A DNA stretch of 64,000 nt from an uncultured Psychroserpens sp. (GTDB lineage Bacteria; Bacteroidota; Bacteroidia; Flavobacteriales; Flavobacteriaceae): assembly GCF_947492715.1 (NCBI RefSeq), contig NZ_CANLNS010000004.1:124001-188000 (forward strand), written 5' to 3'. Made by a program: the position numbers and the translations under genes. Below, piece after piece: positions 348 to 40,368 of this stretch. Each line of letters starts with the position of its first letter. Positions within the stretch are counted from its first letter, which is position 1. The notes under the pieces were generated by a model. It searched no databases. It was given only the letters and a program-made list of their open reading frames with translations, and was not told where the DNA came from.

Positions 348-1163
348 CTATTGGTATACCCTTATGTAATCTACCAACATGGATTGTGGGAAAACAGAAT
401 TTTCGTTTGGAGGACCTGGATAATTACCTCCAACCGCAACATTCATAATAATATAAAATGGCTTGTTAAACACCCATTCTCCAGTAACATCCTCTGGTGT
501 AATTTGATTGTACAATACGTCATCTACGTAGTAGTTGATATAATTTGGACCCCATTCGATACCGAAAATGTGAAACCCTGTATCAAAGCGATCGTTTTCC
601 AATTCGAATGATTTTGTAATTGCTTCGCCAGCAGAATATCCTGGGCCATGAACACTACCATTAATTAATGTAGGTTCTTGACCTCTGTTTTCCATAATAT
701 CAATTTCTCCTGTTAATGGCCAAACTACTTCATCAGAATCCGATCCCAACATCCAGAACGCTGGCCAAAGCCCCTGACTCCATGGTAATTGGATTCTTGC
801 TTCGAAACGCCCGTATTGTTGTTCGAATTTATCTTTTGTTTGTATTCTAGCTGACGTATAACCAGACCCTTCAAAAGATTCTTGTCTAGCCGTTATTCTC
901 AGCATTCCGTTTTCAATGACTACATTCTCGGGACGATCTGTATAGTATTGCAATTCGTTATTACCCCAACCTGGCAATCCGATATCTGAGCCATCTCCTA
1001 TGTCATAAGTCCAAATTGTTGGATCAGGAGCTCCGTTGACATCAAACTCTTGAGACAATGTTAAATTATTCAAGGTCGTTACTGTTTGAGTCTCATCTGT
1101 GTTACAATTTGTAAAAACAAACACTATTAGTAATAAACAAGTTATAAGAGAGACATTTTTCAT
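348..1163 (-). CDS. GH16 endo-beta-1,3-glucanase (laminarinase-type) lipoprotein
   Basis: A 271-residue glycoside hydrolase family 16 protein, expected to cut internal bonds of laminarin or a similar beta-1,3-glucan at the cell surface. The catalytic motif GEIDIMENRG is intact: E153 is the nucleophile, D155 the helper and E158 the acid/base. The flanking GYTSARIQTK and WPAFWMLG stretches are typical of bacterial laminarinases. The N-terminus is a lipoprotein signal ending FTNC, with Cys20 as the anchor. The ATG at 1163 was chosen over one 11 codons upstream because it places the signal peptide at the N-terminus. It is the fourth gene of a minus-strand locus behind a regulator, a GH-A/barrel fusion and a binding lipoprotein (44 bp away). 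Family is clear; exact substrate is inferred. Confidence 0.93.
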   Translation of the reverse strand: MKNVSLITCLLLIVFVFTNCNTDETQTVTTLNNLTLSQEFDVNGAPDPTIWTYDIGDGSDIGLPGWGNNELQYYTDRPENVVIENGMLRITARQESFEGSGYTSARIQTKDKFEQQYGRFEARIQLPWSQGLWPAFWMLGSDSDEVVWPLTGEIDIMENRGQEPTLINGSVHGPGYSAGEAITKSFELENDRFDTGFHIFGIEWGPNYINYYVDDVLYNQITPEDVTGEWVFNKPFYIIMNVAVGGNYPGPPNENSVFPQSMLVDYIRVYQ

Positions 1164-1207
1164 TTTAAAATATTTTTTATCTGTTCTAATTAGCATAACC
1201 TTTAACT

Positions 1208-3127
1208 TTAGTTAATTATTTGTATATCATCATAATAGTAAGTGCTTCCATCTCCTGGCACGCCAGGAATAAATTCAAAGAAAACAACAACTCTAACATA
1301 ATCTGGAGCGGTATTCATTCCTGAAAAATCCCACTCTAATTCTTCCCATTCATTACTTGTTGTTGTATTCGCATCTAATTCGATACCAACAGAATTATCA
1401 GCATTTTCTAACCTTACTCTAATTGGTATACCTAGTTTAGGTGACCAAACTTTCATTCGTAATTTTTGAGATGTTGAAAAATCAATTGGTGCATCGAGAT
1501 TGACAAAAGTTCCTGCAAAGAAATCGGCTCCAACCGTTTTTGTAGTTCGCATAACATTAGCCGTAGGATTAATTCCAGTTGGATCTGGATTGGCTTCAAT
1601 TGCAGGATCAGAACCTGCAAAACCTAAAAAGTCATATGTTAATGTTGTAGACTCCCAACCTATTGGCAATTCTACTTGAGTTGCACCAGAATCATCTACA
1701 TTGGGCGAAGGATCTATAACCTCTTTGTAATAATAAATATTATCAACATAGATATTTGAAACTGTTGCATCTGAAACGAAGAACAAAAGACCTAATTGAT
1801 CCCTAACACTTAAACCTGCAAAGTCACCTAATGCAATATCAAAACTCGCCCACCCATTTGACACGAGTTGTGAACTATTTAATGTCACCGATCCAGATAT
1901 TTCATCTGGAGTTTGAACACCATTGAGTATTTCTAATCTTATAAAATCCCCTGCATCTATTGCTTCTTGTACATTAATATCAACATGGAGGTGTGTCATT
2001 TGCGTTGCATCTATTGGAGATACGTTTAAAAATGTACCGACACCTACGAAATTTAAATCTGTATAATTAATAACTTCCTCACCACCAATATTTAATGGAG
2101 GTGCACCTCCTAGTGTCGTTTGAAATGGCGCAAAAAAGCCGTTATAATAATCTACTGGTATATTCGTGTAAGCATCACTAAACAAAGATATCACGTTTTC
2201 AGGATCTCTATCTGGAATTGGCGCTTGAGTAAACTCTCCTAAGGATTCTAATGTTAAGGATCCTGCAGCATCAATACCACCAAGCGTGGCAGTAATTACG
2301 GTAGTTCCCATTCCAACAACATTTACAACGCCTAGTTCATTTACAGTTGCTACACTAGGATTTGAAGATGTAAAATTAAAATATCCAGGTGCCGCTTTTA
2401 CGATTTCATCAATACCTGTTCCTAAATTAAATGTTTGTCTTAAACCAGTTAGCGGACGTTGAGAACCTATAAAGGTAGTTTCGTTTAAATCATTTCCTTC
2501 AAGAATAGCAGGTCTTGGCTGTGCAATAGTACCCAACTTTTCAAATTTTACATCATCTAGCCAAAACGAGAATCCTGTACCACCCTCAGGTCCTTCGGCA
2601 TACCATAGTAATCCTCTTTCTTCAGTTAATTTTGAAGGGTCTGGAATAGGTATAATATATTTTTTCCAGTTTGTCGTAAGTTGAAGCGATCCTGTAATTT
2701 CAGCTTGAAACTTATTCTCACCAAAATCTTGTCCGAATCCAATATCATTTATCGTTCTAGCTTCAGAACCTTTTGCATAAAATGTTAAGGCATCAAATTC
2801 TGATAAGTCACGTCCAGAAGATGTGCGGAAAATAGCACCAGCATAACCACCATCAGGATTACCTTCATTAGGTACATCAAATCGCATTGAAGCATCGCTA
2901 CCACCGAAAGTGGTTTCGGTATCAACAGAAAACGCTTCGAAAAACGAATCTCCAAAAGGAAAGTAATCTAACCCTGCACTAAACCCATCAATAAAAACAT
3001 CTCCGTTTTGTGGAAATCCAGCTTCTATTGCATCATCAGAAATATCTCTATCACAGCCTACTACAGCCATCGAAATACACGCTAGCAATAGTAAAACCTT
3101 TGAATTAATAAACTTTATATTTTTCAT
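1208..3127 (-). CDS. Multi-module glycan-binding surface lipoprotein with Big_2 domain
   Basis: A 639-residue lipoprotein: signal peptide ending AVVGC (Cys25), then three beta-sandwich modules. The first (about 40-195) resembles CBM11/CIA30-type jelly rolls and ends FWLDDVKFEKL. A bacterial Ig-like Big_2 domain follows at about 235-290 with SSNPSVATVNELGVV. A middle CBM-like module spans about 315-465, and the C-terminal module about 490-639 ends with YYYDDIQIIN, a common closing strand of flavobacterial carbohydrate-binding modules. No catalytic motif was found. It sits 11 bp downstream of the GH-A/barrel gene and 44 bp upstream of GH16, so it probably captures the same glucan at the outer membrane in place of a SusE/F-type binder. 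Role inferred from modules and context. Confidence 0.8.
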   Translation of the reverse strand: MKNIKFINSKVLLLLACISMAVVGCDRDISDDAIEAGFPQNGDVFIDGFSAGLDYFPFGDSFFEAFSVDTETTFGGSDASMRFDVPNEGNPDGGYAGAIFRTSSGRDLSEFDALTFYAKGSEARTINDIGFGQDFGENKFQAEITGSLQLTTNWKKYIIPIPDPSKLTEERGLLWYAEGPEGGTGFSFWLDDVKFEKLGTIAQPRPAILEGNDLNETTFIGSQRPLTGLRQTFNLGTGIDEIVKAAPGYFNFTSSNPSVATVNELGVVNVVGMGTTVITATLGGIDAAGSLTLESLGEFTQAPIPDRDPENVISLFSDAYTNIPVDYYNGFFAPFQTTLGGAPPLNIGGEEVINYTDLNFVGVGTFLNVSPIDATQMTHLHVDINVQEAIDAGDFIRLEILNGVQTPDEISGSVTLNSSQLVSNGWASFDIALGDFAGLSVRDQLGLLFFVSDATVSNIYVDNIYYYKEVIDPSPNVDDSGATQVELPIGWESTTLTYDFLGFAGSDPAIEANPDPTGINPTANVMRTTKTVGADFFAGTFVNLDAPIDFSTSQKLRMKVWSPKLGIPIRVRLENADNSVGIELDANTTTSNEWEELEWDFSGMNTAPDYVRVVVFFEFIPGVPGDGSTYYYDDIQIIN

Positions 3128-3138: not shown

Positions 3139-6100
3139 TTATTTTCCTATATTAATATGTACATATGTTCTAATTTCCCATTCAGAACCATCTGGGAATC
3201 CAACTGCGCTAACAGGAGGTACTCCAAACTCTGGTGCTTGGTTTGGTAAATATCTTGGAGAGAATTGATCTAAAGATCTCCATGTACCTCTAATACCAAC
3301 TGTGGTACTAGGAAGAATAAACCAATCTGGTTTACCTAAAGATGTAGACACATCTAACATTAACTGTAGCGGAAATGTTAAGTTAAAATCTCTGTGGTAA
3401 TCAAATGGTCCCCAATCATTAATTTTAACGTGAGTCTCGAATTTCATTTTCTTATATATCATTCTGATATCTCCCCCGAAACGATCAATTGTTCTCTGAC
3501 TGTCACCATTAGCTTGCCCATTTCCATAATAAAAATTACCAATGATCCCTAGATCAGGTCCAAGTTTTGACACCATTCTTGAGTGTAACTCCCATAAATC
3601 TTCTGCTGGTACAGATGTTGGAAAAGCAAAAAATGTACGATTAGCTAAGAAACCTATATGAGCATCTTGTGTTGTTGGAAGATGGCGAAATACAAAGCCT
3701 AAATTCATAGCAAACTTCGCATCTTCAGCTCGGTCGTTATTCCATTCATAGAACCATGTTCCTGGTTCAGGGTCATAGGTGATTAAAATTTCACCTGCCG
3801 TTGTTTCACGATTACCTCCCCTTACAGCAAATGGATCATCTATAATATTTCTTAATCTACCAGGTGCTTCTACACCGTCTGGCATTGCATCAATCAAAGG
3901 CTTTTGCCACATAAAATTTGGCGCAATTTGAAAATCACCAACAGAGTACGTGAAACCTGTAAGGAAATTGGACATGTTACCACTACCAGAATCTTTTAGT
4001 TTCCATCCAGTAAATGTTAAAGTTTGGTCGGCTCCTCCATTGGCAACTAATCCCATTACAGAACCTTGTGCATACCAATTAAATCTGCCACCTGCATAGG
4101 CAATCTTCGCTTTTCCTCCCCAATTATCTCTTCCTTCAATTTTATCTTCTACAACTACACCACCTCTCATTGCTTGAAAAGAACTACCATTAAGCGGACT
4201 TCCACCCCAGAAACCGCCTAGAGTGACATCAACTTTACCAAATTCTCTTTCAACAACAAGTGTAGCACGCTCAGTTGGCCATGCTGGAATTACACCACTT
4301 CGCACCTGATTAGCATCTAAAATACGTCGACCGTTTTGATCAAATTCAATGTCGGTATCAAGATCTCTATGATAGATTCCTGTAATATCGTAATGTCCAA
4401 CTTTTCGTTGGTATTTTAATAAAGTCGTTGGGTTAGCTCCCCACCATAATTGTGGTCCGAAGGCCGCTTTAAGGCCATCTATTGCTCCCTTACCATCTAT
4501 TTCGAGCCCTAATATTTCACCACCATAAATATCTAAGTTGGGCCCATAATTAGCCTCTGGATACAAGCCAAAGAAATCACCTTCATATCCCCAGTGATAA
4601 TGACCCGTACGATAGAATCCTCTTAAATCGAAGTCTTTAGCATTCCATTCGAATTCCGCTTGGTAAACTCTTAATCTATTAAAATCTGCAATTTCTACAT
4701 CTGTATTATTTCCGCCATCGACGCCAGTAACTGTAATTGGTCGTCCTGCGTTTTCATAGAATATTTCATCAATAGGATTTTCTGCTACGTTTCCTAATAT
4801 ATTAAGATTAACCTTTGCCCTCATATTTGGAGCAGGATTCCCTTCAACACCAATAAAGTAAGATTGCATATGGTCAAACCCTAATTGGTTAGGAAATGCA
4901 TTCACATTTGGATCTTCATTATCTGGTGTTGTAATCAAAGAACCACCAGTGCTAAATGTTGTAAACTTTGCTTGTAAATTGCTAATCCTTATTTTCTGAT
5001 CTCCTCCTCCTTCAAGTGCAGCTTTATCACCTCTAGCTCTCAAAACAGCATCCATTAATTGAATATTATCAAAATATGTGCGTACAGCCTCAGCTGTCAT
5101 CCCCTCGGCATATGGGTTTAGCTGATGCGCCTCTTTCAAGGCATAATATGCGGCTCTTGGATATAATTCATAAAGCCCTCTTGGATCCGTTGGTCCTTTT
5201 GCACAAATTCCGAACCATTCTTCATTCATATTGTTATCACCTTCGGCAATTTGATCTCTGGAGTATCCTCCATTTGCCCAAGATGCGTTATTATCATGTA
5301 CATCCGCATTTTTTCTGTCGTCAAAACCAAATTTCCACCAACCATCACTAAATTGAAAAGTAAAACCTCCAATTGAATTTCCAGTTTCACCTAATCCGGC
5401 GGCATTTTCGTAAATCTCTTTCCAATTTCCTACCATATAATAGGCTTGAGAGTATTGATCCTCTTTATTATCTTTAGCACTAAATGCGTCTGCACCAAAT
5501 TCTGTAAACATTACAGGAATGTTTAATTCATCTTTTACGGTTTGAAACATATCTCGGAAAGAAACACCTCTATAGGTATTTGTACCATAGATGTCAATAT
5601 CTGGACATTCCTCAGCAATGATATCAATAAACAAGACATCACCGTTACAAATGGCTACAGGGTGATTACCATCAATAGACTTCATAGCTTTGGTGACTTC
5701 ATTCATTAATCTATACATTGGCCTTCCTCGATTTTCTCCCACTGCTCTTTTTTGTTCATCTCCTTCAGGAAAATCTTCTGTCTCGGCACCAGCCCAGAAT
5801 AAACCGTAGTTATTCTCGTTACCTAATAAATACATTAATAAACCAGGGGTATCTTTATACTCCTCTACAAGACTTGTTAATTCATTCATTAAAAGTGTTT
5901 GTGTTGCTTCGTCATCATATATTGTTACCGGAGTCCAAACACCATCTATAGTTAAGCCATATCGTCCAAAAGAATGGTTTAACATCGTATAAATACCATA
6001 ATTTTCATAGATATACTGAATCCATTTGGCTGGCACACCAGTATATTGACGTATTACGTTAACACCCATATTTTTTAAGAGTGCCATTTCTCTATCAAGA

Positions 6101-6327
6101 GCAGATTTAATAATATCATCAGACTTTTTAAATAAGTTGGCATCTACGACATCATTACCAATAGGAATGTAATCCCAATTCATACCATTGATCATAAAAT
6201 CTTTCCCATCTACTTTTAATCTCATCCCATCACTGGCACTATCTACATAGACCTTATTGGACTGTGAAAAAGTTAAAAATGTGGCGGCGAAGAAAAGAAA
6301 GATTACAAGAATGTTGTTCTTCATCAT
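3139..6327 (-). CDS. Clan GH-A glycosidase fused to a predicted outer-membrane beta-barrel
   Basis: A 1062-residue exported protein with a Sec signal ending around FLTFSQ. Residues about 30-400 read as a TIM-barrel glycosidase of clan GH-A (closest by eye to the GH2 C-terminal or GH5-like barrels): LLGNENN carries the probable acid/base E171 and MFTEFGAD the probable nucleophile E276. After a linker (about 440-540), residues about 540-1062 are short alternating amphipathic strands rich in Tyr, Trp, Phe and Gly with polar turns, closing with a strand ending YVHINIGK; this is the pattern of an outer-membrane barrel. It is the first gene after the regulator and 11 bp before the binding lipoprotein. 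Start is MM; the second Met (6324) is equally possible. The barrel is judged from composition and periodicity only. Family numbers need a search. Confidence 0.78.
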   Translation of the reverse strand: MMKNNILVIFLFFAATFLTFSQSNKVYVDSASDGMRLKVDGKDFMINGMNWDYIPIGNDVVDANLFKKSDDIIKSALDREMALLKNMGVNVIRQYTGVPAKWIQYIYENYGIYTMLNHSFGRYGLTIDGVWTPVTIYDDEATQTLLMNELTSLVEEYKDTPGLLMYLLGNENNYGLFWAGAETEDFPEGDEQKRAVGENRGRPMYRLMNEVTKAMKSIDGNHPVAICNGDVLFIDIIAEECPDIDIYGTNTYRGVSFRDMFQTVKDELNIPVMFTEFGADAFSAKDNKEDQYSQAYYMVGNWKEIYENAAGLGETGNSIGGFTFQFSDGWWKFGFDDRKNADVHDNNASWANGGYSRDQIAEGDNNMNEEWFGICAKGPTDPRGLYELYPRAAYYALKEAHQLNPYAEGMTAEAVRTYFDNIQLMDAVLRARGDKAALEGGGDQKIRISNLQAKFTTFSTGGSLITTPDNEDPNVNAFPNQLGFDHMQSYFIGVEGNPAPNMRAKVNLNILGNVAENPIDEIFYENAGRPITVTGVDGGNNTDVEIADFNRLRVYQAEFEWNAKDFDLRGFYRTGHYHWGYEGDFFGLYPEANYGPNLDIYGGEILGLEIDGKGAIDGLKAAFGPQLWWGANPTTLLKYQRKVGHYDITGIYHRDLDTDIEFDQNGRRILDANQVRSGVIPAWPTERATLVVEREFGKVDVTLGGFWGGSPLNGSSFQAMRGGVVVEDKIEGRDNWGGKAKIAYAGGRFNWYAQGSVMGLVANGGADQTLTFTGWKLKDSGSGNMSNFLTGFTYSVGDFQIAPNFMWQKPLIDAMPDGVEAPGRLRNIIDDPFAVRGGNRETTAGEILITYDPEPGTWFYEWNNDRAEDAKFAMNLGFVFRHLPTTQDAHIGFLANRTFFAFPTSVPAEDLWELHSRMVSKLGPDLGIIGNFYYGNGQANGDSQRTIDRFGGDIRMIYKKMKFETHVKINDWGPFDYHRDFNLTFPLQLMLDVSTSLGKPDWFILPSTTVGIRGTWRSLDQFSPRYLPNQAPEFGVPPVSAVGFPDGSEWEIRTYVHINIGK

Positions 6328-6649: not shown

Positions 6650-9451
6650 CTAAATTTCCAAAATATAATTTGTTAAGCTAGATTCATGTGGTAAATCCAT
6701 TTTTTTGCGAAGTCTATAGCGTTTCACTTCGACGCTACGAGAGGAAATATTTAACAATGGAGCAATCTCTTTTGAAGATAAATTTAGTCTAAGATAAGCG
6801 CAAAGTCTAAGATCGTTTGGTGTTAAGGACGGATGTTTAGCCTTTACTTTTTTAAGAAAATCCTTATCTGCATTATTGAAAGCCTCTTCAAAGAACTTCC
6901 AATCGTCTGTATTGTTTAGGTTTTTATCAATAATTTTTATAACCGAGTTAAGACCTTCCGTTTTATTAACACCTTTGAGCTCTTCTTTAATGCTATTTAG
7001 GAATTCATTCTTTTTAATAAGGCTCATCGTCGAAATTGCAAGTTCTCTATTTTTATTATCAATATCTTGCTTTAACTGTTCATTTCTTAGCGACATGAGC
7101 TGTTGTTCATTTTCTAATTCTTTAAGTTCTAATTCACGTTCTGCCTCTATAATTAGTTTATCTTTCTGTTTCTTGTAATTTCTTTTGTAAATATTATGAG
7201 TAATAATTGCGAAAGCTATCAGCGACAACGCATAAATAAGCACCAATAGATTTGACAAATACCATGGTTTTTTAATAGAGAACGAATATTCGGCAGTGTT
7301 TTCGGTTATTTGATTTCCAACGCGACCTCGAACATAAAACGTGTAATCTCCAAAAGGCAAATTCTTAAACAGCTCTGATGAGGACTTAGACCATGAGCTC
7401 CATTTATCATAATCTCCGTCTAGCTTGTATTGATATTCAGACTCTAAATATTTATCGAATTCCGCAATACTATAAGTGAATTCGAAATTGTTGCTTTTAT
7501 TATGAAATTCCTTATTCGTTTTGGTTTCTATTGTTCGGCTTTCGGAGTCTAATGCATAATTAGATATTGAATTTATTTGGATATTATAAGATCTATTTCT
7601 CATTTTATTCAAATCCACAACAATGTACCCAAATGAAGAACCGATAAGGTATTTCTGATTATCTATAGGAATAATATTCTCATATCCAGTTATACTTTCT
7701 CTCAATTCGCTTGATAACGGTATCCTTGTAATTTGTGGTGTATCACTAAGCAACCCAGGCGATATAAAGTTTATGTTTCTTTTTGAAAAACTCCAAAGTT
7801 TACCTGGTGTATTCACCAATTTACCAGACACATACGTTTTAGGGTTATAAACTTCACTTAAAACAGTGTCTTTTTTAAACAGGTCTTCACTGCTATCAAA
7901 AGCATAAATACCGTCCTTGTATGCATATAGAATATCAGAATTGAATCTAAGCAAACTAGCGTGTAATCCCTTATTTACAGTGGTATCTTTTTTCACCTCC
8001 AACACTTCTTCATAGCCACTATTAACATCTAATTTATAGACACCTTTATACTCGTGACTCACAAGAATATGATTTCTATCTAGTAGCTCAAAAAATTTAG
8101 AAGATATATCGAATCCATCAATTTTATTTCTAAGTTGCCAATCGTCGTTAACTTTTTCTAAAATGCTCAAACCATTGTAACTTCCCTTTAATAAAAGGTT
8201 TTCATTATGAGGTATCTGTTTTATGCCCCAAGTACCTGCGACATCAAATATTTGCTTCATACCATCGTCGTTAATAATAAAAGTACCTAAATCATGACCA
8301 CAAAAAAGAGTGTCATCATATACTTCTAAACTCCAAACTTGTCCTTTTGTTCCATCCACAAGTTCGAACTCTTCAAGAACATCAAGTGGTTTAACAAATA
8401 ATCCTTGATTTGTTCCAAGGTATAATTTATTTCGGTAGACTTTTGCTGCATGCACAGCTCCCAATTGTCCTTTTTCGTCATTATATACACTAAACGGAGA
8501 TGAGCTGTTAATACAATTAATGCCGTTATCTAAACCAAGCCAAATATTGTCGGTTTTATCTTCAAAAACGGAAAGAACTGTATTATTGGACAAGCCATTT
8601 TTTTGATTATAACTATAGACTATCCTACCTTCGTTGTTAAGTACAATAATACCATTAGAAATTGTTCCAATCGCAAAACTTCCGTCTTTTAATCTCATAC
8701 TGCTATAGGTCGTGAGACTTGAAACAACTTCATTTGACGGAACATCCCATTTAGAAAGCACACCATCATCTAAAACAAAAAAACCTTTTTGATTTGTTTG
8801 AATGATAAAGTTCCCGTCAATACTGAATAAGTTTATAATTCGGTTTGTTTTCAAAAAATCATCATCTGAAAACAATGTTTCTTTACCATTTTCAATTTTA
8901 AAAACACCTTGATTCAGTTTTTGATAATAAATGGTATTGTTAACTTCAACCATCTTAGTTAAAGTTGTTTCTGAATTAATAACATTGAACACTTTCGATT
9001 TTGTGTTGTAACTATAAAGCCTATTTAAAGACTGAAATACTATAAATTCATCCAAAGCAATAATATTCCATATCTGTTCATCTTCAATCATTGGTGACTT
9101 AAGGTCTTTAGACAAAGAGGTATATCCCAACTGGTTAAGACTATCGCGCTTCCAATAACCAAATTCCATATAACAACCAGTATATATTGTGTTTTCAACA
9201 GCTTTTACAGAACGTAATATTGTTTGATTGGGCGTCTTGTATAACTTCCATTTGGCACCATTGAATTCTAATAAACCAATGTTATTAGCGACATAGATAT
9301 AATCATTTTCAGATTGGCTAATAGACCAGTTTTGAGTTTCGGCATTATAGACCTCTGGCAAATAAACCTGAATAGGTGGTATTTCTTGTGCATTAACAGA
9401 TATTGTAGTTAATCCTAAGAATAAAAAAAAGATGCTCTTGTATATTGACAT
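6650..9451 (-). CDS. Membrane-spanning Y_Y_Y / LuxR glycan-sensing transcriptional regulator
   Basis: A 933-residue one-component sensor. Order: signal peptide (1-21, ending VNAQ), a periplasmic two-component-regulator type beta-propeller (about 30-640, with repeats such as DKTDNIWLGLDNGI), a Y_Y_Y domain (about 665-735, YQYKLDGDYDKWS and LPFGDYTFYVRGR), one transmembrane helix (about 742-765), a coiled coil rich in Glu and Lys (about 770-840) and a C-terminal LuxR/GerE helix-turn-helix (about 875-933, LSSKEIAPLLNISSRSVEVK). It has no histidine kinase or receiver domain, so it signals directly from periplasm to DNA, as in the known SusR-like flavobacterial regulators. It precedes the glucan genes on the same strand and probably induces them when glucan fragments appear. 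Confidence 0.9.
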   Translation of the reverse strand: MSIYKSIFFLFLGLTTISVNAQEIPPIQVYLPEVYNAETQNWSISQSENDYIYVANNIGLLEFNGAKWKLYKTPNQTILRSVKAVENTIYTGCYMEFGYWKRDSLNQLGYTSLSKDLKSPMIEDEQIWNIIALDEFIVFQSLNRLYSYNTKSKVFNVINSETTLTKMVEVNNTIYYQKLNQGVFKIENGKETLFSDDDFLKTNRIINLFSIDGNFIIQTNQKGFFVLDDGVLSKWDVPSNEVVSSLTTYSSMRLKDGSFAIGTISNGIIVLNNEGRIVYSYNQKNGLSNNTVLSVFEDKTDNIWLGLDNGINCINSSSPFSVYNDEKGQLGAVHAAKVYRNKLYLGTNQGLFVKPLDVLEEFELVDGTKGQVWSLEVYDDTLFCGHDLGTFIINDDGMKQIFDVAGTWGIKQIPHNENLLLKGSYNGLSILEKVNDDWQLRNKIDGFDISSKFFELLDRNHILVSHEYKGVYKLDVNSGYEEVLEVKKDTTVNKGLHASLLRFNSDILYAYKDGIYAFDSSEDLFKKDTVLSEVYNPKTYVSGKLVNTPGKLWSFSKRNINFISPGLLSDTPQITRIPLSSELRESITGYENIIPIDNQKYLIGSSFGYIVVDLNKMRNRSYNIQINSISNYALDSESRTIETKTNKEFHNKSNNFEFTYSIAEFDKYLESEYQYKLDGDYDKWSSWSKSSSELFKNLPFGDYTFYVRGRVGNQITENTAEYSFSIKKPWYLSNLLVLIYALSLIAFAIITHNIYKRNYKKQKDKLIIEAERELELKELENEQQLMSLRNEQLKQDIDNKNRELAISTMSLIKKNEFLNSIKEELKGVNKTEGLNSVIKIIDKNLNNTDDWKFFEEAFNNADKDFLKKVKAKHPSLTPNDLRLCAYLRLNLSSKEIAPLLNISSRSVEVKRYRLRKKMDLPHESSLTNYILEI

Positions 9452-9668: not shown

Positions 9669-11111
9669 TTATTTGTTTAAAACAGTTGTTATTTTCCGTT
9701 CAAATTCTTCAAATTGTTCATTCAATACCTTTATAGACTTCTCCTTATCCTTCTCATCCATAAATGAATAATCAATACTATTATAGACATATTCCTTAAT
9801 CGTTTCATAGGACGGTTTATAATTCGTAGCCAATAACATATATTCATTTGACAAGTTATTTCTAGACACGCCCGAATCGTCGGTTGAAATGACTAAAGGT
9901 ACACCATAGTTTGAATAAATTAAATAGGGATGTTCTCTACCTTCAACACCAAGGATGAACTTGTTACTGGTTAAATTAATTTCGATTGCAGCTTGATTTT
10001 TAAGTTTAGATAATAATTTATATGATTCATTTTCATAGGGTAGATCAACACCGTGTCCTATTCTTTGCGCACCTGCTATATCTAAAGCCTGATTAATATG
10101 AAATAATAAATTCTTTGGTCTTACCATTCCGATTGTAAGTTCACCTGCATGTAAAGCTCTATTGACATCTGGATATTGCCTTTTAAGGTAATTATACATT
10201 TGCATATGCAGTGTATAGTTTTTTAGAGCAACATAGTTGTTTTCAGGAGCTACAATATTAACACCTACTAGTAAAGGTGTTTTAGTATTGGCAATATATG
10301 CTGAAAGAAGATCTGTATATACCTGTAATGGTTCTAGAACTCTAACGCCATAGCTTTGGAATCTCATGGTGAAATTATCAGTATCAATACCCTCATGATC
10401 CTTAACTATTTTATCTACAAATGTATCTATCTCATTTTCGAAAGCTGTATTGTTTAAATAGACCTTATCTATTTCTTTTAGAATTTCATCTACATCTTCC
10501 TGTGTCTTTACTAGTTCTAATAACGTGTTGAAGTCGTTATCTTGAGGAAAATAATCACTGCTAGACACACCCACTGCACTTAACATGGTTTCAATGTAGG
10601 ATACATTTTCATTAATAGCTCTTTCCTTTAAAATATTCAATCCTATATTCATGTATTCGTCAGAAACGGCTCCAAAATAACCAAACGTATTAAAGAATTG
10701 TAAATCTGGTGGCGGTTCAGAATGATCATGATTTGCAAAATCTAGATCTGACCAAAGTTCTAACAACTGCCTATATAGTGCTGTGTTTTTTATAACCTCA
10801 TCTGCTGTTAATAGCGTACAACCTTGGGTTTCGGAGACATCCTTAATTATTTTTAACGAACAACTATCTATTCGCCAATTCTTATCTCCTACCCAATCTA
10901 AATAGGTTTCTGCATATATGGATCCTGTATAATGATGATGAATATCACCACCTTTAGGCATATTAGTAAAAAATTGATTTAACTCTGCGATGTCATTTGT
11001 TTCTACCAGTTTCTCATAGAAATCTGATGTTGTTTCAAAATCTAACTTATCATTTGTTTTTTTACAGCCTAATATGCACAGGCAAAAACTCATTATTACA
11101 ATATTTTTCAT
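9669..11111 (-). CDS. Adenosine deaminase-family lipoprotein
   Basis: A 480-residue metal-dependent deaminase of the adenosine deaminase/ADGF type, converting adenosine to inosine with release of ammonia. Metal and catalytic motifs are present: GGDIHHHYTGS (His58-60), ALHAGE (metal His and catalytic Glu), RIGHGVDL and STDDSGVSR. The N-terminus is a lipoprotein signal with LGC at residues 14-16, so the enzyme should sit in the periplasm or at the outer membrane, unlike the cytoplasmic enzymes of the same operon. The ATG at 11111 gives a clean signal peptide and a 4-bp gap to the upstream gene; an ATG at 11123 would overlap it. Last gene of the purine operon. Confidence 0.88.
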   Translation of the reverse strand: MKNIVIMSFCLCILGCKKTNDKLDFETTSDFYEKLVETNDIAELNQFFTNMPKGGDIHHHYTGSIYAETYLDWVGDKNWRIDSCSLKIIKDVSETQGCTLLTADEVIKNTALYRQLLELWSDLDFANHDHSEPPPDLQFFNTFGYFGAVSDEYMNIGLNILKERAINENVSYIETMLSAVGVSSSDYFPQDNDFNTLLELVKTQEDVDEILKEIDKVYLNNTAFENEIDTFVDKIVKDHEGIDTDNFTMRFQSYGVRVLEPLQVYTDLLSAYIANTKTPLLVGVNIVAPENNYVALKNYTLHMQMYNYLKRQYPDVNRALHAGELTIGMVRPKNLLFHINQALDIAGAQRIGHGVDLPYENESYKLLSKLKNQAAIEINLTSNKFILGVEGREHPYLIYSNYGVPLVISTDDSGVSRNNLSNEYMLLATNYKPSYETIKEYVYNSIDYSFMDEKDKEKSIKVLNEQFEEFERKITTVLNK

Positions 11112-11115
11112 AAGA

Positions 11116-12111
11116 CTAGTCATTATCTTCTACATTTGCTTTTAACTGTTGCAATACATAATCATAAAAAGCATCTGAGTTTTTCAAATTAAAATAAACA
11201 GATTGTGCATTTCTATTTTCCATTTGATGTATCCAGCCCTGAGTGTCATTTCCCCATTCTTCTATTGTTAAAGATATCTCTTCTGGATCTGCGAAGATGT
11301 CATTTGCAGCAGTTCCTAGGAAACATGTGGCTAAAGTATTCCACATTTCATAAAATGGCTCATCTTTTACCAAACCATAAGCTTCACTAACAAATTGTGA
11401 CAGATTAAAATCCTTTGCCTGCGCGGCAAGTTCAGTTTTAAATGCATCTGTAATCTTTGCCTTATCTGTAATGTCCAGTGGAAACATATGAATCCCGCTA
11501 AACGTAGTAAACAATTCGTTAACCGCAAAAGGATCCCAAAAGGCATTCCATTCGGCTTTATCATTTGCTATTTCCCGAGGCACAGAAACCGTTTTATCAT
11601 ACAAATTTCCTTTCACAAAAATGGCACCTCCCATCCAAATAACTTTCTTAATTCCTTTAATAAGTTCTGGGCGCCTTTTTAACACTGTGGTAATTGCTGT
11701 AATCGGACCTGTAGCTAATACAATTACAGGTTCGCTCATTATCATGGCCTCTAATAACAATACTTCTATCATATCTTCTCCAGATTGATATGGCGGCGTT
11801 ACATGACTCTTAAAAGGATATAAGGATTCTATAGTGCCCATTGTAATGCAATCTTTCCTATAAGACCAAGGAAAGGCGTTCCATCCTCTAGCCATACTTA
11901 AAGTTAGTGGAATATTCTTTTTCTCTAAACCTAGAAATTGATGTACTTTACTAGATGTATCCATAGCTGGAGTAGCAATACAATCGGCATTGGTTACAAC
12001 AATACCTTTAATATCTATATTTGGCATTGAACTAAGCACTGCTGTGGACACAAAATCATCAATTGCGGCACTATGATTAAAAATTACTGGTGTTGGTTTT
12101 GAAGTTGTCAT
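11116..12111 (-). CDS. Divergent inosine-uridine nucleoside hydrolase-like protein
   Basis: 331 residues of the nucleoside hydrolase superfamily, which splits nucleosides into base and ribose. Family marks are the N-terminal strand-loop ending IDD (residues 17-19), KKVIWMGGAIFVKGNLYD and the WNAFWDP segment. The usual DxDxGxDD calcium and catalytic motif reads NHSAAIDD here: the first two Asp are Asn12 and Ser14 while the last two remain. The late HD motif is also replaced, near PFYEMWN. The calcium site and proposed general base are therefore altered, and activity or substrate may differ from textbook enzymes. It lies between xanthine dehydrogenase and adenosine deaminase, so inosine, guanosine or xanthosine are reasonable substrates. 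No export signal. Confidence 0.8.
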   Translation of the reverse strand: MTTSKPTPVIFNHSAAIDDFVSTAVLSSMPNIDIKGIVVTNADCIATPAMDTSSKVHQFLGLEKKNIPLTLSMARGWNAFPWSYRKDCITMGTIESLYPFKSHVTPPYQSGEDMIEVLLLEAMIMSEPVIVLATGPITAITTVLKRRPELIKGIKKVIWMGGAIFVKGNLYDKTVSVPREIANDKAEWNAFWDPFAVNELFTTFSGIHMFPLDITDKAKITDAFKTELAAQAKDFNLSQFVSEAYGLVKDEPFYEMWNTLATCFLGTAANDIFADPEEISLTIEEWGNDTQGWIHQMENRNAQSVYFNLKNSDAFYDYVLQQLKANVEDND

Positions 12112-12133
12112 ATTTTTATTTTTTTACTAAAGT

Positions 12134-15100
12134 TTATTTAAGAGTCATTTGATCTAATGCCACATGGCAAGCTGCTTGTATTTTAGGTATTGTTGCAGGT
12201 GCTGTCATTTCTACCCATCCTTCATGGCCGACTTCTTTATAAAATGCAAGTATGGCTTGTTTGATAGCAAAAAACACAGAGTTGGCAAGTACTAAAGGTG
12301 GTTCTCCTATACCCTTTGAAGATTTCACAGCTCTTGCTGCGAGTTTTGGATCTAATCTTTCTTGTGGAGTCAATCGATCATCAAATATCGAAATTCTAAA
12401 ATCTGTAGGTATGGATTTTGTCCCTGGAGGTTTATAATCCCAGGTATTCACAGAAGTTATGGCTTCTTTTGGAATACCTTCAATTGGTGTCTCTTTTGGT
12501 CCTTGTTTAATCATTTCCTCGGTCGTTAAATACCCCAATCCTTGAACAAACGCACCTTCTAACTGACCTACATCAATTAAAGGGTTAAGACTTTTTCCTA
12601 AATCAAATAAGATATCTGTTCGTTTTGTTTCGAATTCTCCTGTTAGAATGTCTACTTCAACCTCACTTACAGCGGCAGAATATGTAAAGTAAAAGAAGGG
12701 TCTGCCTATTGGATCTGTGTTATCTACAACATCATGATGAGGGGCTCTATATCTAGCAGACTCACTTAAGTTTATTCGACTTGAATAGGCCCATTCTATA
12801 ATCAATGGCCATACCTCAGACCAATGGTCTCTCCAGTTACGTACAATAGTCTTAACTTTTAAGGCATCCTGAGAATCGGCCTCTACAGCTTCAGCAAAAT
12901 ATAGGACATTATCTTCTAGATCAATACACATTTGTTCTAGGCGGTTTCTCAGTGCTAAACACGCTTTTTGAACTGCACCTCCATTAAGATCAGATCCTGT
13001 AGATGCTGCTGTTGCAGAGGCATTATTAACAATATTAGTATTCGTTTCTGCCATTTTAATATATGAAATTGGAATACCCAATGCTTCTGCAGCAATTTGA
13101 GCCATTTTAGTTTGAATACCTTGCCCCATTTCAACGCCACCATGATGTACCAAAACAGAACCATCTCCAGAATAAACTAATACATAAGCTCCTCCTTGAT
13201 TTAAAGCTCCTCTCGGACCATTAAAAGAAATCCCATATTTTAAAGGAATCATAGAAATTCCTTTCTTTTTCCATTTATTATTGGCGTTAAATTCTTCAAT
13301 GCTGGCTTTTCGTTTTTCAAAGTCTGAGGACGTTTTTAAGTCGGTCCATATCTGATTGATATTGTTCCATTTCAATCCTGCTAAATATGGCGTATAATCG
13401 TAAGATGTGGTACTAAAATCTTTTAAAGTGATAAGTTTATCAATATTTGAAGGTCCTATTAAACCTTCAATATTATGACTATTTATAGCCATTTCTAATT
13501 CAGTTTCATCCTTATACACTACATCCTTTAAAACTTCCAAACTATGCAATGTTGATTTATCAAAACCAAACATTTCTAAGACACTTAATGTCCAATCTGT
13601 AATTTGAAAACTTGTCCATTTAACTTGTCCATCTTTATAAAAATTGCGCTCTCTAATTTCTTCTGGGCTAATACCACACTCAAAAGCCGTTCGTTCAATA
13701 CATTCTTCGAGTATGTTCATACTTTGAACCAAACCAAAAGCTCTAAATGCTGTGTTGCTTATCTCATTAGTTTGACAGACGTTACCAGTAACTTTTAAAT
13801 GTTTAATATTATAGGCATTATCGCCACTTAATACAGATAAGTCCATTACGGGAAAAGAAAGGTCATAAGTATTTCCTCCATTGGAAATATAATTCATTAC
13901 CATTCCTGTTATTTTACCAGACGGCTCAAATTGTGTTGCAAAGTGACCATAAAACGGATGTCTATTTCCACACATAATGAAGTTAGTTTCTCTAGACATT
14001 TTTAAACGAACTGGGCAATTGTGCTTATGAGAAGCGATGGCAATTGGTCCAGCAATAAATCGAGCTCTAGATTGCCTGCCTCCAAATCCGCCTCCAAGTC
14101 GCTGTACAGTTACTTTTACATCAGCTGCATCGATACCTAAAATACTCGCTACAACACTCTGGTCGTCGGCCAAATTTTGCGTTGTAGAATACAATATCAT
14201 ATCTTTATTTTCACCTGGAATAATTAGACCAGTCATGGTTTCCATGTAGAAATGGTTTTGATATCCTGTGGCATGATTTCCGTGAGAAAAACTGTGTTCA
14301 ATATTAGTATCTCCATGAGCTAATCTTTCTAAGTTTTCAAGAATAGCAATATCACTACCTGGTCTAATCATTTCTTCAATATGACTTAAACCTGGATTTG
14401 TACTTGGAGATTGAGGAAAATAGTGTTGTTTTTGTAAGGCTTCATCAATGTAAATTCCTCGTTGCTCTTCATACTTTATGCAATGTCGTCTTATATACTC
14501 GGCAATGGTATTTGATAAGGCTTCGGTCTTTGCTAAAACAATGGCAAGAGGTGCCCCTATCGTAGTAATCTCTTCAGGAAAAAAGACCTCAGAATCTTCT
14601 CCTTTTTTAAGAATTAGTGTCGGTATTTGATCATCTTCCGAAGGCACAAATAGAGGATCGTCTAATCCCGCTCCTCCCCAATTATTTAAGCGATTATCCT
14701 CGTGAATATCAGCATAAGTAATTAAATCGGTAAAACCTGAAAACTTATCACTTAAGAAGTGTACCAATTCCTCTACACTCACTTTTTCTTTACGTGGTAG
14801 ACAATAACCAAAAGTTCCCTTTGAAATTGTACTGTAGACAAACGCCGCTTCCAAAGTATTTGGAGGTGTTAATACGCTGGACGTATAGATGGCTTCTCCT
14901 GTAGCCTGCATGAAAGCGGATAGCTTTACAAAAGGTGCTGATACTGGTAGTTCATCTTCATATGAATTATAAAACTGAATACCTGATGAAATATCGTCGT
15001 GCAAATTATCATTCAACGAATCTATATGTTCTGAAACTTTAATATGTCGTTGTTTACATACTGAAACAAAAAATTTATAGAATAATGAAGACACCAAATT

Positions 15101-16678
15101 TTGACGATAAGAAAACGGTATTTGATTGATCTCTAAAAGTTCATTACAATCATTTTTTGGTGGTTCATAATTTCCAATTTCATCTCTAATTAAATGCAAT
15201 GCATTACTTAAAGTATCCTCATTCCATGGCATTCCAGATAACATTTTAGACACATGAGATAAAATGACAGGTTTAAATTTGAGTCCCTCGGAAGTATCAT
15301 CATAGCTAGCATTGATTCCATTTACGACAAAATGACTTTCTACGACCTGTTCATTATTATCCAATGTCACCTTAAATCCAGCATTTACTATGGCATGACA
15401 ATCTTCCACACGCCTGCGAATTTTGAAGGTTTTTATGTAGTCATTCTTCTTTGTATAAGGTATTGTAATGGCATAATAAATAGCATCTTTACCTAACTCT
15501 GAAGCCTTTGGCAATTTCAGAATTGGATATGTTACTGTTGAAGTATCCTTACTCGTTTTCACCGTTATTGTCGCCTCAAGAGTTGCTAAAACCAAAACCA
15601 AATCTGAGAGAAACCCTTTGTTGGTTCCAATAAAAATATTTCCAGCTAGAGTTGCTTCATTTCGCACTTGCAGATTGGCTACTTTATGAAGATGTTCCTT
15701 TAAAGCGACAAGCCCCTTACTTAAAGGTTCTTCCAGTTTTTCTATTTGATTTTCAAGCACATTCAAAAACCTAGACAACGTAATTTGCCCGCCAACAGTT
15801 AAGCTATTCTCTGTAGATTTAACAGATTGTAGTTCGGTGATTTTAGAAATATCAATAATACATTTTGGATCTTGATAGGCTTCATTATAATTTGCTTTGG
15901 TAGGATAAATTCCAACTGCTGTATTACCACTCATCAGCTGCAAGTTAGGACCTACAGGACCATACTCATCTAATAAACCAAATAACTCTGGGAGTACTGT
16001 TGGTCTAAAATAACTATAGTCATTCTGGCTAAAATGAAGGCTGTCTGGGTTTTCCATATACTCTGCAAAGTCTTTAGGAATATTGATTTTCGTGGCATGT
16101 GGTTGTGCCTTTGGTTTATAATTAGGATCTAATTCTATTTCTGGTATATGCTTTGGTGGTTTATAATTACTCGCCAATTTTTTAAAGCCATCTAATATTG
16201 GACGATACCCTGTACATCGACAGATATTCCCATCAAATAATTCCTCAACTTCCCTTACATTTGGCTTTGAATCTTCCTGCATTCTTGTAAACATATTCAT
16301 AACAAAACCTGGCGTACAATAACCACATTGAGAACCATTATTAGCAGCAATAGTCCATTGTATTTCGTCTACTGCTGTTTTAACATTACCAATGCCTTGA
16401 GTGGTTGTTATCAATGTACCATCTATAGAGGATAATGGGCGTAGGCATGCATTAATAGCTCGGTTGGTTATTCTTCTCAGCACCTTGTCATAACCCGTTA
16501 ACATTACAGTACAAGCACCACAACCTCCTTGTCCGCAAGCTATTTTGGTTCCGCCTTTTCCAATCTCGGGCAAATGCAAAAAATCTATAAGTCGCATTTT
16601 GGGAGACACATTAAACAAGGTCCTTTTTTTACCATCGAGATAAAACGTAAGGTGATTTTTATACTCAGAAACTTCCAT
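12134..16678 (-). CDS. Single-chain xanthine dehydrogenase (2Fe-2S / FAD / molybdopterin)
   Basis: A 1514-residue molybdo-flavoenzyme that oxidises hypoxanthine to xanthine and xanthine to urate. Order: a plant-type 2Fe-2S domain (Cys48, 53, 56 in CGQGGCGAC, then Cys78), an alpha-helical 2Fe-2S domain (Cys118, 121, 153, 155; QCGYCTPGF and CRCTGYRP), an FAD domain (about 225-500, with VRNEATLAGNI), then the molybdopterin domains with QRLGGGFGGRQSR, FRAFGLVQ, GGVEMGQGIQ and the catalytic Glu in KGIGEPP. All cofactor domains are on one polypeptide as in eukaryotes, whereas many bacteria use two or three subunits; it is also longer than the roughly 1330-residue animal enzymes. The start at 16678 (MEVSEYKN) avoids overlap with the upstream gene. 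Confidence 0.93.
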   Translation of the reverse strand: MEVSEYKNHLTFYLDGKKRTLFNVSPKMRLIDFLHLPEIGKGGTKIACGQGGCGACTVMLTGYDKVLRRITNRAINACLRPLSSIDGTLITTTQGIGNVKTAVDEIQWTIAANNGSQCGYCTPGFVMNMFTRMQEDSKPNVREVEELFDGNICRCTGYRPILDGFKKLASNYKPPKHIPEIELDPNYKPKAQPHATKINIPKDFAEYMENPDSLHFSQNDYSYFRPTVLPELFGLLDEYGPVGPNLQLMSGNTAVGIYPTKANYNEAYQDPKCIIDISKITELQSVKSTENSLTVGGQITLSRFLNVLENQIEKLEEPLSKGLVALKEHLHKVANLQVRNEATLAGNIFIGTNKGFLSDLVLVLATLEATITVKTSKDTSTVTYPILKLPKASELGKDAIYYAITIPYTKKNDYIKTFKIRRRVEDCHAIVNAGFKVTLDNNEQVVESHFVVNGINASYDDTSEGLKFKPVILSHVSKMLSGMPWNEDTLSNALHLIRDEIGNYEPPKNDCNELLEINQIPFSYRQNLVSSLFYKFFVSVCKQRHIKVSEHIDSLNDNLHDDISSGIQFYNSYEDELPVSAPFVKLSAFMQATGEAIYTSSVLTPPNTLEAAFVYSTISKGTFGYCLPRKEKVSVEELVHFLSDKFSGFTDLITYADIHEDNRLNNWGGAGLDDPLFVPSEDDQIPTLILKKGEDSEVFFPEEITTIGAPLAIVLAKTEALSNTIAEYIRRHCIKYEEQRGIYIDEALQKQHYFPQSPSTNPGLSHIEEMIRPGSDIAILENLERLAHGDTNIEHSFSHGNHATGYQNHFYMETMTGLIIPGENKDMILYSTTQNLADDQSVVASILGIDAADVKVTVQRLGGGFGGRQSRARFIAGPIAIASHKHNCPVRLKMSRETNFIMCGNRHPFYGHFATQFEPSGKITGMVMNYISNGGNTYDLSFPVMDLSVLSGDNAYNIKHLKVTGNVCQTNEISNTAFRAFGLVQSMNILEECIERTAFECGISPEEIRERNFYKDGQVKWTSFQITDWTLSVLEMFGFDKSTLHSLEVLKDVVYKDETELEMAINSHNIEGLIGPSNIDKLITLKDFSTTSYDYTPYLAGLKWNNINQIWTDLKTSSDFEKRKASIEEFNANNKWKKKGISMIPLKYGISFNGPRGALNQGGAYVLVYSGDGSVLVHHGGVEMGQGIQTKMAQIAAEALGIPISYIKMAETNTNIVNNASATAASTGSDLNGGAVQKACLALRNRLEQMCIDLEDNVLYFAEAVEADSQDALKVKTIVRNWRDHWSEVWPLIIEWAYSSRINLSESARYRAPHHDVVDNTDPIGRPFFYFTYSAAVSEVEVDILTGEFETKRTDILFDLGKSLNPLIDVGQLEGAFVQGLGYLTTEEMIKQGPKETPIEGIPKEAITSVNTWDYKPPGTKSIPTDFRISIFDDRLTPQERLDPKLAARAVKSSKGIGEPPLVLANSVFFAIKQAILAFYKEVGHEGWVEMTAPATIPKIQAACHVALDQMTLK

Positions 16679-16697
16679 ATAATTTGTATTAATTAGT

Positions 16698-17840
16698 TTA
16701 ATGAGGACATGAATCACCAGTTTCAGGTGCCTTGTTAGCTGCACTCATATGCGGACAAACAACATCTTGCATGACTGGCCCTAATAAATCCACTTGACCA
16801 GATAGATCATCTCTTGGTTGACTATGATCTGTGAGAATCATTGCCGCCGCTGATCTGTCTTCTAAAATCCGAGCTAGAAAATGTAATGCTGGATCCACAT
16901 CTGTAAGATTAGTTACAATCAAAAGATGCTCATCCAAGGCTTCTTCTCCATCTGCCATTTCAGGTAAAATACATTGTGCAATTGAGTTTAACTTTCGGGT
17001 TACCCATTCTCCTTGAACGATAACGTATAAATTTGCCCAATCTTCTTCAGAAAATGTATCTCTCCATGTTTGCATTAATGTGCTTATTCCTAATTGCTGC
17101 GTTGATGCTGCAATCACTTGGGATTGTACGATAAGTTTATAGAGTGTATCATCTGGATTATCTTTATCGTCGCTGGTCATGTTACACCATTTTTGAAACA
17201 CTTCTGCAGGGGATTCGTCGTCACTTAATTGGAATGCTGTGTTATCTACAAAATCGATTGAGGATTTTAACAAGTCTTTCATCACTTTAATGACATGAGG
17301 CACTACTGTATCTTCGTCTAAATGAGGTGGCGCATCGTCAAATTGACCAGTGACATTATTTAAATCCATTACCAATTTCCGCTTTAATCTATCATCAATT
17401 TGATAGCCCTTTTCAACATCAATATCATCTATCGTTGACAAGGCCTTTGCTAATACATTTCTATAATCTTCCATTGGTGCTCTCCAGCCTTGATTTTTGG
17501 GGTCTGTACTATAAGGACCAAAGCATCCAAAAATACCAAGAGGCGCATGCGCAATAGATTTTGCCATATAAAACAATCTGGCTACAGGCTCAACAGTATA
17601 TCTGGCCTCTTCTCCATATTCATCTCTAACTAAAGTAAATTTTCCGCCGCCAGGCGTAAATTGAGCAACAATTACCGGTTGAAATTTTGTTAAATCGGCT
17701 TGGACTCTATCTTGTAAATCGTCCATATGAGCCAACATTTCTGTATCCACTTTAATGACGTTTGCAATAGCTTCTGCGTTTAAACTAGAATCAACAATTG
17801 AGATGTGATCCTTCCAGTTAAAATTTGAATTCGTTTCCAT
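16698..17840 (-). CDS. Unrecognised 380-residue protein of the purine operon
   Basis: Not assigned to any family. It is soluble-looking, acidic, without signal peptide or membrane segments. Visible features are a Gly-rich stretch TPGGGKFTLVRDEYGEE (about 63-79), a probable helical core (about 85-320) containing LGIFGCFGPYSTDPKNQGW and PPHLDEDTVVPHVIKV, and a C-terminal tail with two CPH triplets separated by 13 residues, the second forming the exact C-terminus. The paired Cys/His triplets could bind a metal or an Fe-S precursor. It fits tightly between guanine deaminase (25-bp gap) and xanthine dehydrogenase (19-bp gap), so co-expression with both is nearly certain. A partner or maturation role for the molybdoenzyme is a guess from position. 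The gene is real: ATG start and length consistent with neighbours. Confidence 0.85.
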   Translation of the reverse strand: METNSNFNWKDHISIVDSSLNAEAIANVIKVDTEMLAHMDDLQDRVQADLTKFQPVIVAQFTPGGGKFTLVRDEYGEEARYTVEPVARLFYMAKSIAHAPLGIFGCFGPYSTDPKNQGWRAPMEDYRNVLAKALSTIDDIDVEKGYQIDDRLKRKLVMDLNNVTGQFDDAPPHLDEDTVVPHVIKVMKDLLKSSIDFVDNTAFQLSDDESPAEVFQKWCNMTSDDKDNPDDTLYKLIVQSQVIAASTQQLGISTLMQTWRDTFSEEDWANLYVIVQGEWVTRKLNSIAQCILPEMADGEEALDEHLLIVTNLTDVDPALHFLARILEDRSAAAMILTDHSQPRDDLSGQVDLLGPVMQDVVCPHMSAANKAPETGDSCPH

Positions 17841-17865
17841 TTGAAATAGTATTTTAGTTTATCGG

Positions 17866-35487: not shown

Positions 35488-35543
35488 CTTTTTCCTGCTT
35501 TCTAATTTTAATTTATATTGCCTGTCATGCATTTTGAAAAATT

Positions 35544-35596
35544 CGTCAATCCGAGTGGTTGTCCTGAGTTCAATTCAGGAAAAGCTTGAACTGACG
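35544..35596. repeat. Nested palindromic intergenic repeat (copy 2, short form)
   Basis: Outer arms CGTCAATCCGAGTGGTT and GCTTGAACTGACG match those of the repeat at 27092-27188 (in inverse orientation), and an inner hairpin pairs TCCTGA with TCAGGA. It lies inside the gltB-gltD gap, so both copies in this window are inside amino acid operons between large and small subunit genes. Confidence 0.65.
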
Positions 35597-35663
35597 TTTT
35601 TTATAATATATCCAATCAAAATGTATAATTGGTATTGTCTAGTATCTTCAAATTATTAGCTGA

Positions 35664-40184: not shown

Positions 40185-40368
40185 TTTGATGGTTTCTACA
40201 CCTTAATATATCTGTAATATATATTGTAAAATTCGATTTAAAAAAAAGCCGAAACACTTTTCTCATATCGATAATTAAGAGCTTTCAAATTGAAAATTTG
40301 ACAATATTATTGAGCTTTAATATGAAATCTGCAATTAAAAAATATTCAATAAAAAAGGAGCTTTGTTA

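Follow-up and report, generated by a model that had tools for sequence, protein, structure and literature searches.

The 64,000-nucleotide window analysed here (positions 124,001 to 188,000 of contig NZ_CANLNS010000004.1, from an uncultured Psychroserpens sp.) encodes on its minus strand a polypeptide of 1062 amino acids, in which a glycosidase of clan GH-A is followed by a predicted outer-membrane-type barrel. The enzyme-barrel fusion is real and widely conserved, being present in the laminarin (beta-1,3-glucan) gene clusters of many marine Bacteroidota, and here it is proposed that it may act in laminarin uptake. The gene and its parts are as follows.

3139..6327, minus strand: fusion gene, 1062 amino acids, with signal peptide, GH-A glycosidase, linker and 24-strand barrel (open reading frame (ORF) list and models)
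6265..6327, minus strand: signal peptide, residues about 1-21, of the signal peptidase I type as judged by eye
5353..6252, minus strand: predicted GH-A TIM barrel core, residues 26-325 (AlphaFold2 model, conservation, and a GH158 endo-beta-1,3-glucanase as best Foldseek match)
5815..5817, minus strand: codon of E171, predicted acid/base (conservation and model)
5500..5502, minus strand: codon of E276, predicted nucleophile (conservation and model)
4993..5127, minus strand: variable, partly helical linker, residues 401-445 (model and conservation)
3148..4992, minus strand: predicted outer-membrane-type barrel, residues 446-1060, 24 strands, those shorter than seven residues uncounted (models, strand tests and Foldseek)

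Relatives of the fusion were taken as two sets of loci, numbered with L, while sampled genomes are numbered with G. The first set (L001-L080) holds the best 80 of 417 confirmed relatives (421 candidate stretches, one genome per species), from Flavobacteriaceae or its genera, and the second holds 31 fused loci from a phylum sample of 395 genomes, with the genome of the window and G305 (a 3.7-kb contig) left out. In the first set, the alignment to the fusion spans from residue 21 or earlier to residue 1057 or later in all 80 kept relatives, at 71-86% identity. Over 32 diverse sequences, the mean conservation of the linker stretch (400-445) is 0.51. A simple pattern detects no lipobox in 109 of the 111 fused relatives, and the two matches (L012 and L020) are cysteines inside the hydrophobic stretch.

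A sequence-only reading of this DNA had proposed that one chain carries both the glycosidase and the barrel, and this is supported by the models and the Foldseek matches. The AlphaFold2 model of the full protein (predicted local distance difference test, pLDDT, 66.1; predicted template modelling score, pTM, 0.46) has a TIM barrel and then 24 antiparallel strands.

Enzyme domain

The TIM barrel of residues 26-325 is supported by the AlphaFold2 model, where its eight strands are 46-50, 91-95, 113-118, 163-168, 224-229, 246-250, 272-276 and 318-325. In the model, N170-E171 come after beta4 (163-168) and E276 closes beta7 (272-276), which is the clan GH-A arrangement of a TIM barrel with Asn-Glu after beta4 and the nucleophile Glu after beta7. 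E171 and E276, both named earlier as the catalytic glutamates of the clan, are confirmed in these positions; together with N170 they are invariant in 112 fused proteins, the one of the window included, and in nine unfused ones (121/121), and the two glutamates are also invariant in the 81-sequence alignment.

The best Foldseek matches of the enzyme part in the PDB are GH158 endo-beta-1,3-glucanases (9p26, E 1.9e-13, and 6pal, E 1.2e-11; TM 0.55 by target), followed by GH2 glucuronidases and GH157, and PslG (5bx9) is also among the fold matches. The sequence leans slightly to GH2 beta-galactosidase, with 1yq2 at E 0.0018 in a PDB profile search, ahead of GH158, whose E of 0.0057 is marginal despite the best fold match, and with an NCBIfam match to PRK10340 (beta-galactosidase, E 4.2e-5). 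GH2 membership was rejected, however, because the scores are under the cut-offs (18.3 bits versus 21 for the Pfam GH2 TIM model, and 21.5 bits versus 1284, far under, for the NCBIfam model) and the domain layout is wrong. In GH2 enzymes, sugar-binding and Ig-like domains are N-terminal to the TIM barrel; such domains are absent in the model, which has TIM strand 1 already at 46-50, directly after the signal peptide and a small hairpin. The enzyme would act on beta-1,3-glucan, a specificity taken from fold and operon context, not from sequence.

Barrel domain

The full-length and the barrel-only models (the latter with pTM 0.70 and pLDDT 70.7) alike have 24 antiparallel strands of at least seven residues within 446-1060, with a few shorter pairs uncounted. 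Foldseek of the barrel model listed 50 matches (of 307 at E up to 0.001, and 802 at E up to 10), all of them outer-membrane barrels and not stacked soluble beta-sandwiches. These include BtuB, FepA/PfeA, LptD, OccK and PapC, as well as Bacteroides barrels solved with surface lipoproteins, namely BtuB-BtuG and XusA-XusB. A Pfam scan of residues 450-1062 gave no family match up to E 0.05, and the whole fusion up to E 1 gave a weak GH2 match as the sole one, with no TonB-dependent-receptor or autotransporter match. There is no plug domain, as the enzyme domain begins after about 25 residues, a count that includes the signal peptide.

The mean contrast of the lipid-type residue alternation is 0.432 in the 24 strands versus 0.247 (standard deviation 0.038) when residues are shuffled within strands, with 0 of 2000 shuffles as high, in a test that is not independent of the model, from which the strands were taken. 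The same contrast for the TIM strands is 0.262. The barrel had been placed in the C-terminal half for its alternating amphipathic strands, and these are indeed above chance; however, it starts near residue 446 and not at 540. As modelled, the domain has the even strand number, the amphipathic and antiparallel strands, and the long loops on one side with short turns on the other of an outer-membrane barrel. Models, strand tests and fold matches support the membrane barrel, and residues 446-1060 very probably form one of the outer-membrane type.

The predicted outer loops are more conserved (0.766) than the strands (0.712; p 9e-4), while the inner turns are at 0.679, and the highest values are those of loops 575-603 (0.94), 626-632 (0.93) and 970-986 (0.93). 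The conservation of the loops above the strands fits a selective channel, as expected if the loops shape one.

Side faced by the enzyme

The gaps after odd strands are 30, 40, 29, 7, 30, 27, 26, 31, 25, 13, 17 and 29 residues (median 28), and those after even strands are 2, 3, 6, 2, 2, 4, 2, 20, 2, 2 and 10 residues (median 2). The difference has a p of 6.7e-5, and the barrel-only model gives similar gaps. Outer-membrane barrels have their long loops outside and their short turns inside; since the long gaps follow the odd strands, strand 1 would run outward and the enzyme preceding it would be in the periplasm. This pattern supports the periplasmic placement of the glycosidase domain, which we consider probable. 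With a periplasmic enzyme, the likely order is entry through the barrel and then cutting. The sequence-only reading had the enzyme cutting first and the pore taking up the products, an order that is not sustained and is probably the reverse.

That reading also implied an enzyme facing the outside, as it would in a surface display in the manner of autotransporters, where it goes through or around the barrel. Type V autotransporters are generally built in this way, with the enzyme N-terminal and the barrel C-terminal, and some unfused relatives look like lipoproteins, possibly surface-exposed; however, the C-terminal barrel of type Va autotransporters has 12 strands versus the 24 modelled here, the loop/turn pattern puts the N-terminus inside, and Pfam gave no autotransporter match, which makes surface display quite improbable.

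Distribution and gene order

In the 395-genome sample, 58 genomes matched, of which 33 have the fusion (in G204 cut by a contig end), G235 has a broken one, nine have the unfused enzyme, and 15 match weakly and were left out of the counts. The homologues do not show the whole protein to be a periplasmic enzyme; nine genomes have the enzyme alone, and these lack the barrel. Of 385 sampled genomes, 35 have the barrel region (33 fused, one broken fusion, and a remnant in G119), and none of the 385 has it as an intact stand-alone protein. No fused protein of one set is more than 97% identical to one of the other, and L045 and L046 share 99% identity.

The next annotated gene on the same strand after the fusion is a lipoprotein of carbohydrate-binding module (CBM) type in 79/79 readable loci of the first set and in 29/30 of the second (108/109 together, L062 and L118 being dropped because they end before any downstream gene). 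The gap between fusion and lipoprotein has a median of 16 bp in each set and ranges from -91 to 536 bp, the largest being that of L041. GH16 is among the next three annotated genes after the fusion in 77 loci of the first set and 29 of the second. After the unfused genes, in contrast, the lipoprotein comes next in none of seven readable loci (L116 and L117, with no annotated same-strand gene downstream, being dropped), where GH149 is next in six and GH30 in one. No gene labelled as that lipoprotein type occurs anywhere in the nine unfused loci, while a GH16-type gene is found elsewhere in four. The names of the neighbours come from BLAST matches (E up to 1e-8) with single reference proteins, a procedure that may miss divergent genes. 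Because the coupling holds for the fused genes and not for the unfused ones, barrel, lipoprotein and GH16 behave as one outer-membrane module.

Operon and neighbouring genes

Three further genes of the cluster lie in the window.

6650..9451, minus strand: regulator with similarity to Y_Y_Y and to a LuxR-type helix-turn-helix, both scoring slightly below their Pfam cut-offs; the cluster begins with this gene
1208..3127, minus strand: partner lipoprotein, 639 amino acids, lipobox followed by C-DRDISDD, Big_2 domain; probable surface glycan-binding protein
348..1196, minus strand: GH16 lipoprotein of laminarinase type (C-NTDETQ)

The partner lipoprotein matches a PDB entry named as a PKD domain-containing protein (8qx6, E 4.9e-6), and its homologue in L141 scores 22.9 bits with SGBP_B_XBD, under the cut-off of 26.4. 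In Bacteroidota, acidic residues right after the lipoprotein cysteine mark proteins for surface export, and the signal peptides here commonly read C-(D/E)RD... in the partner and C-xxDETQ in GH16, with acidic residues directly after the cysteine. Among the proteins labelled as partner, 78 of 114 matched the lipobox, as did 76 of 111 labelled as GH16, by a simple pattern that misses some, as several of the missed proteins still have the cysteine and then acidic residues.

Beyond the window, in the same genome, the operon has a beta-1,3-oligosaccharide phosphorylase that matches 6hq6 with E 0 (GH149 per the literature), and further genes for GH17, GH30, MFS_2, a second GH17, a CBM-like protein with a type IX secretion tail, and a LacI regulator. 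With GH16, the GH149-type phosphorylase, two GH17, GH30, MFS_2 and LacI, this is an operon for beta-1,3-glucan degradation. A function in export, with the barrel and a periplasmic glycosidase serving exopolysaccharide secretion, has its parallel in the alginate, poly-N-acetylglucosamine (PNAG) and Psl systems, where a carbohydrate enzyme of the periplasm works with a protein of the outer membrane, and the enzyme part has PslG as one of its fold matches; this function is hardly credible, as the scanned operon genes encode catabolic enzymes, a phosphorylase, an MFS transporter and regulators, with no glycan synthase recognised among them.

Other genes of the window were named by eye. On the minus strand, 9669-18636 resembles a purine-breakdown cluster, with an adenosine-deaminase-like lipoprotein, a nucleoside hydrolase-like gene, a single xanthine-dehydrogenase-like protein of 1536 amino acids and a deaminase-like gene. 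The 34024-42958 cluster has glutamate-synthase-like genes (34024-35532 and 35664-40184), a small barrel-like protein of 244 amino acids (40615-41349) and an ammonium-transporter-like gene (41717-42958), and it resembles the laminarin-induced porin cluster of Formosa (FORMB_11920), as that cluster is presented in PMC6246565. At 52988-61501, on the minus strand, a protein of 2837 amino acids with many DMSNVTNM...MF-type repeats is encoded, probably a large surface protein.

Proposed role in laminarin uptake

It is moderately probable that the fusion is a laminarin uptake protein working by the full mechanism given here. On the surface, where its lipoprotein signal would place it, the GH16 laminarinase (a family read from sequence) would cut the polymer, and the adjacent lipoprotein would hold the glucan and may cap the barrel in the manner of BtuG and XusB, a lid role suggested by the BtuB-BtuG and XusA-XusB barrels among the fold matches. 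Oligosaccharides would then pass the 24-strand barrel, predicted to be wide and plug-free, and the tethered glycosidase, in the topology of the models, would cut them as they emerge at the periplasmic mouth. The lipoprotein GH17, the lipoprotein GH30, the MFS transporter and the cytoplasmic GH149 phosphorylase, as assigned by family, would complete the breakdown. The fusion, its conservation, the genes of the operon and the coupling in gene order are shown by the data; we infer the opening of the pore, its substrate, the direction of transport and the lid. A bolder reading, in which the fusion is an unrecognised glucan importer of Bacteroidota, with a plug-free 24-strand pore capped by a lipoprotein and with its own periplasmic glycosidase, pulling substrate in by cutting it, without SusD or TonB, is put forward tentatively, as something short of probable.

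The slight lean of the enzyme sequence to GH2 weighs against the uptake mechanism, and so do several other observations. The confidence of the full and barrel-only models is modest, and they come from an alignment whose 81 sequences are 72-86% identical to the first one; additional short pairs of strands (such as 716-729) make the strand number of 24 uncertain by about two, with parity unaffected; and against known barrels the modelled barrel has low TM-scores (by query, 0.20-0.37). L139 has no lipoprotein downstream of the fusion; the gene found there instead resembles a chitinase (by eye), and a CBM-like protein carrying a type IX tail is encoded upstream. A SusC-like gene is near 26 of the 111 fused genes (22/80 in the first set and 4/31 in the second, on the same strand in 25 of the 26), counts that are lower bounds, as up to 8 kb in the first set or a 19-kb stretch in the second were covered. 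The genome of the window also has a laminarin-type SusC/SusD pair. From these last two points, the barrel is often not the sole route.

Laminarin is among the largest marine carbon flows, and its uptake by Bacteroidota has been read nearly wholly through SusC/SusD. The conserved fusion in laminarin operons, which also occurs in three genomes where the search for SusD found none, suggests a second route of entry. It raises the questions of whether Bacteroidota have a sugar pore independent of TonB, and whether tethering an enzyme to a pore speeds import.

Relation to SusC/SusD

The fusion's own operon has no SusC/SusD, as all five SusD (PF07980) places and six SusC places over the cut-off in its genome fall outside C4:106001-188000. 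The departure from the usual SusC/SusD split, proposed from the letters of the DNA, thus holds for this operon, but it does not amount to a simple replacement, given the SusC-like genes at fused loci; the idea that the fusion strictly replaces SusC/SusD was rejected on those counts. The nearest SusC/SusD pair in the genome is about 85 kb from the fusion, and its SusD is 74% identical to that of the unfused laminarin locus of G304. This pair (L187, 6695-14149) consists of SusC-SusD and two further lipoprotein-like genes, with no enzyme gene seen adjoining. A similar SusC-SusD set is directly upstream of the fusion in L061 and L120, and both SusC and SusD are present in two of the nine unfused loci.

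SusD by PF07980 is absent in 5 of 33 fused genomes, two of which have other SusD types. G066, G051 and G255, which are fused and 99-100% complete, have no SusD by PF07980, PF12771 or PF14322; all three have TonB-dependent transporter relatives, with SusC over the cut-off once in G051 and not in G066 or G255. Some lineages thus have the fusion together with SusC/SusD, and others have it without SusD.

The SusC-like genes near fused loci and the pair in the genome of the window would also agree with a barrel that is a mere anchor, forming no pore and holding the periplasmic glycosidase at the outer membrane beside SusC. Anchoring, however, would need neither 24 strands nor predicted outer loops conserved above the strands, and in three of the fused genomes none of three models finds a SusD. 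A lipid anchor would be cheaper, and some unfused homologues (L114, L115, L116 and L150, by eye and pattern) seem to have one. The anchor is thus unlikely.

Loss of the barrel

In a tree of 52 enzyme domains, the unfused rows are placed among the fused ones and need at least five changes; L152, a broken fused gene, was not counted as unfused, and the tree by itself gives no direction of change. In the unfused L149, a 65-residue similarity to the barrel start (3426-3620; 40%, E 3e-10) runs across the stop codon of the enzyme, whose ORF ends at 3461. This stretch is a decayed barrel start and a direct trace of barrel loss. Because the unfused rows are scattered on the tree and L149 keeps this remnant, repeated loss is the simplest reading, and it is more likely that the barrel was lost several times. 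The same two observations disfavour a recent fusion from separate genes.

Comparison with known systems

Like SusC/SusD-type loci, the fusion operon combines an outer-membrane barrel and an adjoining surface-type lipoprotein with GH16 and further glycosidases; unlike them, it has no plug and no SusD, and its barrel shares one polypeptide with an enzyme. The sugar porins LamB, OprB and CymA are plug-free oligosaccharide barrels with fewer strands; the fusion differs from them in carrying an enzyme, and its barrel matches no Pfam family, theirs included. Among the open-access papers listed by full-text searches, judged by title and opening of the abstract, none describes this fusion or an outer-membrane counterpart to the MFS-GH17 fusion of Formosa, a scope that leaves subscription papers and preprints mostly outside.

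The GH158 endo-beta-1,3-glucanases, as described for BuGH158 (6pal) in PMC7157763, resemble the fusion in fold, in the Asn-Glu after beta4 and the Glu after beta7, and in belonging to beta-1,3-glucan loci, although the sequence similarity of the enzymes is marginal. According to the same description, BuGH158 requires N136, E137 and E220 for activity and has a C-terminal Ig-like domain, where the fusion has instead a linker and then a membrane-type barrel.

According to the main text of a 2026 paper, the laminarin loci of Muricauda have a GH2 beta-glycosidase in the upstream position, together with GH16 and GH149 (PMC13188888). This gene has the same neighbours as the fusion, namely GH16, GH149 or GH3, GH17 and a LuxR-type regulator. 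Contig SGIU01000001, named in that paper, is the source of L038, in which the fusion occupies that position; L010 comes from the same strain as its JAMFMA01 entry, with another contig number. The identity of the two genes rests on genome and gene order, not on accession. The main text of the paper gives only the GH2 call, and "outer membrane", "porin" and "beta-barrel" are absent from it, so the published annotation appears to file the fusion as a GH2 enzyme. For the laminarin loci of Croceitalea and Croceivirga, genera that carry the fusion (L021 and L029), a Maribacter study notes GH2 alongside GH17 and CBM proteins (PMC11345257).

The MFS-GH17 fusion of Formosa, FbGH17B, as presented in PMC6246565, also joins a transporter and a glucanase in one chain within a laminarin locus, and by their own statement there its authors knew in 2018 of no such transporter-CAZyme fusion in other bacteria. 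FbGH17B, however, is a helical transporter of the inner membrane with a GH17 enzyme, whereas the fusion of the window is of the outer-membrane type, with a GH-A enzyme of unsettled family. The components of the fusion are of known kinds, and no description of their combination and probable arrangement was found in the papers listed.

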